A stretch of 43,958 nucleotides of DNA from Gammaproteobacteria bacterium (GTDB lineage: Bacteria; Pseudomonadota; Gammaproteobacteria; RBG-16-57-12). The DNA lies in assembly GCA_021647245.1 (NCBI GenBank), contig JAKIVC010000026.1:1-43958 (forward strand), read 5' to 3'. Positions 38,198 to 43,958 of this stretch are shown one piece after another; position 1 is the stretch's first letter, and each line of letters begins with the position of its first letter. The translations under genes and the position numbers were made by a program. The notes under the pieces are model-generated. The model was not told the origin of the DNA. It did not search any database and was given only the letters and a program-made list of their open reading frames with translations.

Positions 38198-38274
38198 CGG
38201 GGCGTAGCGCAGTCTGGTAGCGCGCCTGCTTTGGGAGCAGGATGTCGGGAGTTCGAATCTCTCCGCCCCGACCA
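38198..38274 (+). tRNA. tRNA-Pro (TGG)
   Basis: A 77-base cloverleaf with acceptor CGGGGCG pairing CGCCCCG, discriminator A and encoded CCA. The anticodon loop TTTGGGA between CCTGC and GCAGG gives anticodon TGG. The T loop is GTTCGAATC. It is the first of three tRNAs in one transcript. Confidence 0.97.
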
Positions 38275-38293
38275 ATTTTTTCGAACAAGTCAT

Positions 38294-38370
38294 GCGCCCG
38301 TAGCTCATCTGGATAGAGCATCGGCCTTCTAAGCCGAGGGTAGCAGGTTCGAGTCCTGCCGGGCGCACCA
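38294..38370 (+). tRNA. tRNA-Arg (TCT)
   Basis: A 77-base cloverleaf with acceptor GCGCCCG pairing CGGGCGC, discriminator A and encoded CCA. The anticodon stem TCGGC/GCCGA holds loop CTTCTAA, so the anticodon is TCT, reading AGA/AGG. It is 19 bases after the tRNA-Pro. Confidence 0.97.
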
Positions 38371-38395
38371 TATTCCGGTAGTTATCATCATTATG

Positions 38396-38471
38396 GTGGG
38401 CGTAGCTCAGTTGGTAGAGTCCTGGATTGTGATTCCAGTTGTCGTGGGTTCGAGCCCCATCGTCCACCCCA
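38396..38471 (+). tRNA. tRNA-His (GTG)
   Basis: A 76-base cloverleaf with acceptor GTGGGCG pairing CGTCCAC (one G-T pair), discriminator C and encoded CCA. The anticodon stem CTGGA/TCCAG holds loop TTGTGAT, anticodon GTG. A G at 38395 supplies the extra G-1 that pairs with discriminator C, the identity mark of bacterial tRNA-His. Confidence 0.97.
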
Positions 38472-42359: not shown

Positions 42360-43781
42360 TCAAATCGCCCTGGGCAGGGTAATAGTCGACTCCTCAAGCT
42401 TCCCTTCAGGGAGTTGCCCACTCTCTTTATCACCCGAAATCCGCTGTACCAAATCATAATAGTTACGAATATTACGAACATACATGACCGGCTCGTGTCC
42501 CCGCGCATAGCCATAACGGGTATTTTTATACCACTTTTTCTGTCGTAACAGCGGCAAGCTCTCCTTCACATGCATCCACTTGTCAGGATCTAGCCCTCGT
42601 TGGGCAGTGATGATACGTGCATCCTCAAGGTGGCCAAATCCAACATTATAGGCCGCAATAGCCATCCAGGTTCGATCCGGCTCCTCTATTCTTTTAGGGA
42701 TTCTTCTCATCAGTGACTTCAAATAGCGTGCACCCCCGTTAATACTCTGCTTGGGGTCAATACGGTTGCGTATTCCAAGCTCTCTCGCGGTGGTGAGTGT
42801 CAGCATCATCATACCCCTTACCCCGGTTGGTGAGACCGCCTTTGGGTTCCAGTGGGACTCTTGGTAAGAGATGGCTGCAAGTAGTCGCCAATCAATATCA
42901 TTCTCGATGGCCGCTTCTTCAAATAGCTCGCGATAGACTTGCAACCGCTGGTAGTAGTGTGTTTTGAATTTTCGCGTACCCACGTAATCAAATGACTCTG
43001 TGTGACCGTAATAACGCTCCAGCAGTTGAGCCAACTCACCCGAATCGGCAAGTGATGCAAAAAAAACGACCGCTTGATCATATAAACTACTGTCATCACT
43101 CAAAGGGAAGGCCCATGCAAGTGACTCGGGTTCACCTAGGTCAAATGCGACGCGAAGCTCTGGATAAAAACGCTGGCTAAGAGCAACCTCATTAGAGTCT
43201 GCAATGGTGTAGTCAATCATGTGTTCCCAGACAAACGTGAGTAACTCCTCCGACTCCATTTCGCTGTTTTCGCGCCAACGCAGGGCAGGGTATTGCTGTT
43301 GTAGTGTGACGAGCTGCTCAACATGACTGCTGCCACTTACCACTTCGATATCGCCTTCAATAATATCGGCAACACTTTTCGGTCTTGGATTACCGTAGCG
43401 ATATATTAACTGCTGGGTTATCTGCTGATAACCTGGGCCAAAGCGGACCACTTTTTGACGCGCTTCGGTAATCGAGAGACCTGCCGCCGCAAAGTGAGCA
43501 TCACCCCGGGTAATCATGGGGATAATATCCGGGAAAAAAGGCGGGGTAATGATTTTTAGTTGTACACCGAGCTGGTCAGCAAAACGCTTGGCAAGTTCAT
43601 ACTCAAGTCCGGTAGGTTGATCATCAGGCCCCTGGTAATAGGTGGTTGCACCGGGGCGCATGATGACCACAATCTCACCCTCTGCTTTTATTTTTGCCAG
43701 CACGGAAGTCTCAGGGAAAAAATTACACCCCTGCAAAAACAGTCCCAATAAAATAATTTGTAAAATGAGTAACCAGCGCAT
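42360..43781 (-). CDS. mltF: membrane-bound lytic murein transglycosylase F
   Basis: MltF cleaves peptidoglycan glycan strands with formation of anhydromuramic acid. From the ATG at 43781 the product has 473 residues and a lipoprotein signal ending LFLQGC (Cys19). A solute-binding-like domain (about 30-255; GLEYELAKRFADQLGVQL) is followed by the transglycosylase domain (about 285-420) with catalytic Glu at about 308 in YQESHWNPKAVSPTGVRGMM and the AYNVGFGHLEDAR motif. Two upstream in-frame ATGs (43820 and 43901) are disfavoured: the first displaces the lipobox and the second lies inside the intron-like sequence. An AGG lies seven bases before the chosen start. Confidence 0.94.
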   Translation of the reverse strand: MRWLLILQIILLGLFLQGCNFFPETSVLAKIKAEGEIVVIMRPGATTYYQGPDDQPTGLEYELAKRFADQLGVQLKIITPPFFPDIIPMITRGDAHFAAAGLSITEARQKVVRFGPGYQQITQQLIYRYGNPRPKSVADIIEGDIEVVSGSSHVEQLVTLQQQYPALRWRENSEMESEELLTFVWEHMIDYTIADSNEVALSQRFYPELRVAFDLGEPESLAWAFPLSDDSSLYDQAVVFFASLADSGELAQLLERYYGHTESFDYVGTRKFKTHYYQRLQVYRELFEEAAIENDIDWRLLAAISYQESHWNPKAVSPTGVRGMMMLTLTTARELGIRNRIDPKQSINGGARYLKSLMRRIPKRIEEPDRTWMAIAAYNVGFGHLEDARIITAQRGLDPDKWMHVKESLPLLRQKKWYKNTRYGYARGHEPVMYVRNIRNYYDLVQRISGDKESGQLPEGKLEESTITLPRAI

Positions 43782-43833
43782 CGGTAACCTAATTAAGAAC
43801 CATAACAACGGTAGCGGCATATGGTTACATATT

Positions 43834-43958
43834 GTGTACGCCCAGCATGGGCATGAACTCATGAGGTGAAAGTCCTCTGTAGGAAGATCACCGTCGAACA
43901 CCGTGTTGTTAGTAGACGATAACTACTAGCGAATGGCAAGGGCCAACCCGCGAGGGGC
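43834..43958 (+). mobile_element. 5' end of a group II intron, continues past the window
   Basis: From 43834 the plus strand reads GTGTACG, which fits the GUGYG consensus of group II intron 5' ends. The short hairpin GCCCAGCATGGGC and the stem-loop GAGGTGAAAGTCCTC follow, as in domain I of bacterial group II introns. The remaining 70 bases contain further stems but no reading frame. The ribozyme and its reverse transcriptase gene, if present, lie beyond the window. It inserts just upstream of mltF, on the opposite strand to it. Confidence 0.77.

Follow-up and report, generated by a model that had tools for sequence, protein, structure and literature searches.

A predicted group IIC-attC intron inserted antisense upstream of mltF at a contig end of a gammaproteobacterial genome

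A full-length mobile intron, assigned to group IIC-attC, was almost certainly inserted upstream of mltF, in the opposite orientation and at a TTGT/T site (the slash marks the point of insertion). The window analysed here is the entire contig C26 (43,958 nt) of a 64-contig genome, and it terminates within a repeat. The insertion is precise, the element occurs in several copies, and its 3' end encodes the C-terminus of a reverse transcriptase (RT)-maturase. The interior of the mltF copy is absent from the assembly, most likely as a collapsed repeat, and is expected to be complete with an active RT-maturase. The element on the mltF side is another copy of a known kind, the group IIC-attC family that commonly occurs in integrons, and its biology is otherwise already known; it provides a clean case of such an intron at a non-integron location, for which sister species show the precise empty sites, and it explains the end points of C26 and of several other contigs in the assembly.

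Boundaries of the intron and its empty site

The first 123 nt of the intron occupy positions 43836..43958 of the + strand, antisense to mltF on the - strand, and the contig end falls inside the element. C26 stops at this position because its end lies within a multi-copy intron. The exon/intron junction reads ...CATATTGT / GTACGCCCAGC and the end of the window reads ...CGGCATATGGTTACATATTGTGTACGCCCAGCATGGGCATGAACTCATGAGGTGAAAGTCCTCTGTAGG.... A single occurrence of the 17-base motif GTACGCCCAGCATGGGC was found in the window, against an expectation of 0 (100 shuffles, up to 2 mismatches). The first-pass annotation had placed a GTGTACG boundary at 43834. An intron 5' end is indeed present there, but it starts 2 nt later, at 43836 (GTACG), because the preceding GT belongs to the exon; this position is based on the empty sites in a congener. 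Group II introns typically begin with GUGYG and end with AY. The 5' terminus of this element, GUACG, shows a single departure from this rule that is common to the whole lineage, and its 3' terminus, AT, conforms to it. A scan of the window with Rfam at gathering and permissive thresholds gave no intron match, since the first group II block (RF02001) begins only at about intron position 110.

The two short stem-loops described in the first-pass annotation proved to be real. In a comparison of 34 relatives, the first (GCCC-AGCAT-GGGC, 43840..43852, + strand) was invariant, partly by construction, as the relatives had been gathered with a pattern containing that motif. The second (GAGG-TGAAAGT-CCTC, 43863..43877, + strand) showed a compensatory change in 9 of the 34, in which the GAGG/CCTC pairing was kept by an exchange of A-U for G-C. 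Moreover, a third helix (CGTC/GACG) showed both-sided changes at three pairs, and over the 34 relatives 98% of the helix cells were paired versus 28-57% in slid controls.

The 3' part of the intron was found on contig C37, which starts with the 17 C-terminal codons of the intron RT, followed by domains V-VI and then by ...CTACCCGAT / TTAATAAAAC. This 3' end encodes, in frame, QGLVALRDGWIKLHYAK and a stop codon, corresponding to the C-terminus of the RT-maturase, and domain V/VI was recognised by Rfam RF00029 with 49 bits (gathering threshold 40). Of the RT and the domain V that had been named as the check on the intron, the partner contig thus carries the RT C-terminus and domain V. The congeneric genome G002 has an empty site, CATATTGTTTAATAAAAC, which joins C26 and C37 with neither gap nor duplication: its intron-free region upstream of mltF reads CATATTGTTTAATAAAACAACAGG, which equals CATATTGT of the window plus the C37 flank TTAATAAAACAACAGG. 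The congener G001 is likewise without an intron upstream of mltF. The linkage of C26 to C37 rests on the congener's empty site, not on reads. The whole intron thus has the termini GTACGCCC...CTACCCGAT and lies in a TTGT/T target without duplication; the partner contig and the empty site together bear out the claim that a group II intron begins upstream of mltF. As a candidate partner contig, the one carrying purL, the expected neighbour of mltF, was rejected; purL is located on C41.

Intron copies in the genome

Seven intron 5' ends were found in the genome, that of the window and six more (78-100% identity, with some at 95-99%), as well as 14 group II domain V matches above the family cut-off. 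In seven contigs one terminus lies 122-127 nt into the 3' end of an intron, which would reflect a k-mer assembler stopping at a multi-copy repeat. Six near-identical 3' ends of 122-126 nt (L035, L032, L033, L034, L036 and L037) are located at the ends of contigs C32, C2, C17, C20, C37 and C56, and a variant is located on C9. Matching 5' ends at contig ends were seen only on C26 and C36, and for five 3' ends no 5' partner was found in the assembly.

Truncated or internally deleted intron copies are common in this genome (C10, C1, C42 and C43), and no matching intact intron-encoded protein (IEP) was found in the assembly. Both observations would fit a truncated or ORF-less fragment, instead of a full mobile copy, upstream of mltF. 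However, the mltF copy is intact at its 5' as well as at its 3' end, the latter carries 17 in-frame IEP codons with the stop and is common to five other contig ends, and a short piece would not normally break an assembly, which makes a fragment quite unlikely. Two internally deleted copies, L026 (6279-6630, C32) and L027 (6246-6633, C1), keep the 5' end and have no RT frame; the one on C1 also keeps part of domain V. An RT search of the genome itself returned only another intron family, on C7. This second, perhaps also a third, group II intron family (L039, L040, L044, L029 and L031, on C7, C3, C41, C42 and C16) has its own domain V, with the C-terminal part of an RT on C7 and an RT remnant on C42.

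Intron class, relatives and target site

The genome collection was scanned once for the 17-base motif, which yielded many relatives. The complete ones are 1,920-1,948 nt long, contain a frame of 449-460 aa and possess all of the Rfam D1-D4 blocks and domain V. Their IEP matched TIGR04416 (group II intron RT/maturase) above the cut-off and consisted of RVT_1 and GIIM, with no other Pfam domain and no endonuclease domain. Compared with solved structures, the IEP of the Paraglaciecola intron (L156) was most similar to the GsI-IIC RT (459 bits), followed by 7uim (378) and LtrA (155); the GsI-IIC protein (PDB 6ar1) is a class C RT-maturase, and this likeness is that of the L156 IEP and not of the unassembled IEP of the mltF copy.

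IBS1 and EBS1 pair, with covariation, in about 30 relatives, the EBS1 loop ACAAGAC matching an IBS1 TTGT. Most relatives form 4-8 IBS1-EBS1 pairs, either TTGT/ACAA or the variant TGGT/ACCA, and ACCAG loops mostly accompany TGGT exons; these pairings provide independent support for the intron boundary. In the window, the 5' exon end CATATTGT (43828..43835, + strand) contains the TTGT complementary to the ACAA of EBS1, which here is that of the relatives, since the window does not reach as far as the EBS1 of the mltF copy.

Among annotated relatives, those most similar to the intron (87.8%) are located on Enterobacteriaceae plasmids. In total, 347 plasmid records, mostly from Klebsiella, contain a copy with a coverage of 80% or more of the 123 nt; the best reaches 87.8% over all 123. 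The copy that was inspected, on the E. coli plasmid NZ_CP028486.1, adjoins blaIMP-4, and a group IIC intron, Kl.pn.I3, has been described beside this gene (PMC5027574). The plasmid copy is probably Kl.pn.I3, as judged from the blaIMP-4 context in that paper and not from a named record. It aligns with the window intron over 123 of 123 nt (87.8%), shares both the start GTACGCCC and the end CTACCCGAT, is 87% identical at the 3' end and has a junction of the TTTGT/T type. It differs by about 12% divergence and by its blaIMP-4 integron context, whereas the copy described here is located upstream of a core gene. The complete introns of Paraglaciecola, Vibrio rumoiensis (L146) and Marinobacter (L106) likewise share both ends, the IEP and insertion at TTGT/T or TTGGT/T, but are only about 81-86% identical over the 5' end, and many are found at attC-like sites.

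The endonuclease-less IEP, the best match to GsI-IIC and the short IBS1, all taken from the relatives, predict that the element belongs to group IIC. A group II intron of another class (IIA or IIB) with its own homing site would fit the 5' GUACG, which departs from GUGYG, and the insertion site at mltF, which is not an attC. This alternative is nevertheless very improbable given the endonuclease-less IEP nearest to GsI-IIC, the short IBS1 TTGT, the many relatives at attC-like GTCCG...TTGT/TAGG sites and the blaIMP-4 plasmid relative that fits the published IIC intron Kl.pn.I3.

The genome copies are inserted at CATATTGT/TTAATA (mltF) and at TTTTGT/TGGCC (C36/C32). In the latter case the 5' flank of C36 and the 3' flank of C32 map to adjacent bases of G002 (C109, 5834/5833) and to near-adjacent positions in G001, so that precise insertion without target duplication was observed at two empty sites. 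A chimera created by the assembly, the cell having no intron there, as the position of the junction 123 nt from the contig end and inside a repeat might suggest, is extremely improbable because in two independent cases the flanks from two contigs match a single empty site, meeting precisely at the splice boundaries.

Group IIC introns require a hairpin upstream of IBS1. At mltF, a candidate target hairpin of 7 bp (AACCATA/TATGGTT, 43798..43826, + strand) ends 9 nt before the junction; its DNA fold of -4.7 kcal/mol was not significant, as 22 of 200 shuffles folded as well. By inspection, the mltF site does not contain GTCCG...GTTRRRY and is not an attC. Group IIC-attC introns use a TTGT/T target in the orientation opposite to the cassette genes and prefer attC bottom strands, not exclusively, as other hairpins are also used (PMC7923331). 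The exons of many relatives read GTCCG..TTGA.CG..TTGT/TAGG, resembling an attC bottom strand, and other copies in the genome are found at attC-like sites too. When the copies were read by eye, the recent identical 3' ends were mostly followed by non-attC-core sequence and some diverged copies were located at attC cores; the near-identical recent copies thus seem to sit mostly outside attC. Reverse splicing and target-primed reverse transcription would have brought the intron into the intergenic region ahead of mltF, possibly with use of the candidate hairpin. An integron integrase (G000:C20:51126-52064, L235; TIGR02249, 433 bits) is encoded about 4.3 kb from the intron copy at the end of C20, and such an integrase is present in all three genomes of the genus.

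mltF and its promoter region

The mltF gene (42363..43781, - strand) encodes an intact membrane-bound lytic murein transglycosylase F of 473 aa in an open frame, with 93% identity to its G002 orthologue. The intron is separated from the mltF ATG (43781) by 54 bases, in agreement with the earlier estimate of about 50. It had also been proposed that the element cuts mltF off from its promoter. Upstream of the position that corresponds to the insertion, G002 has two promoter-like sites on the strand of mltF, which is in line with this proposal, but only weakly so, since three such sites were found in the region versus 1.2 expected. It is plausible that the intron lies between mltF and a possible native promoter, and it could thereby affect mltF transcription.

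An outward promoter, Pout, is known for the intron S.ma.I2. The antisense strand of the present intron family contains TTGCCA-N17-TTTAAT in several members. By antisense alignment, the mltF copy has TTGCCA-N17-TCTACT (43910..43939, - strand), a putative outward promoter directed toward mltF with a poor -10 element. A scan of the window end for consensus promoters found none, this candidate included. The ability of IIC-attC introns to supply an outward promoter has been reviewed (PMC8876359). In a broader scenario, one IIC-attC intron of this lineage would have spread recently to TTGT/T sites other than attC, the mltF promoter region among them, where its antisense Pout would take over from the native promoter and thereby rewire a peptidoglycan gene; this appears unlikely. 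Elsewhere in the window, three tandem tRNA genes were identified with Rfam at 38198-38468 on the + strand.
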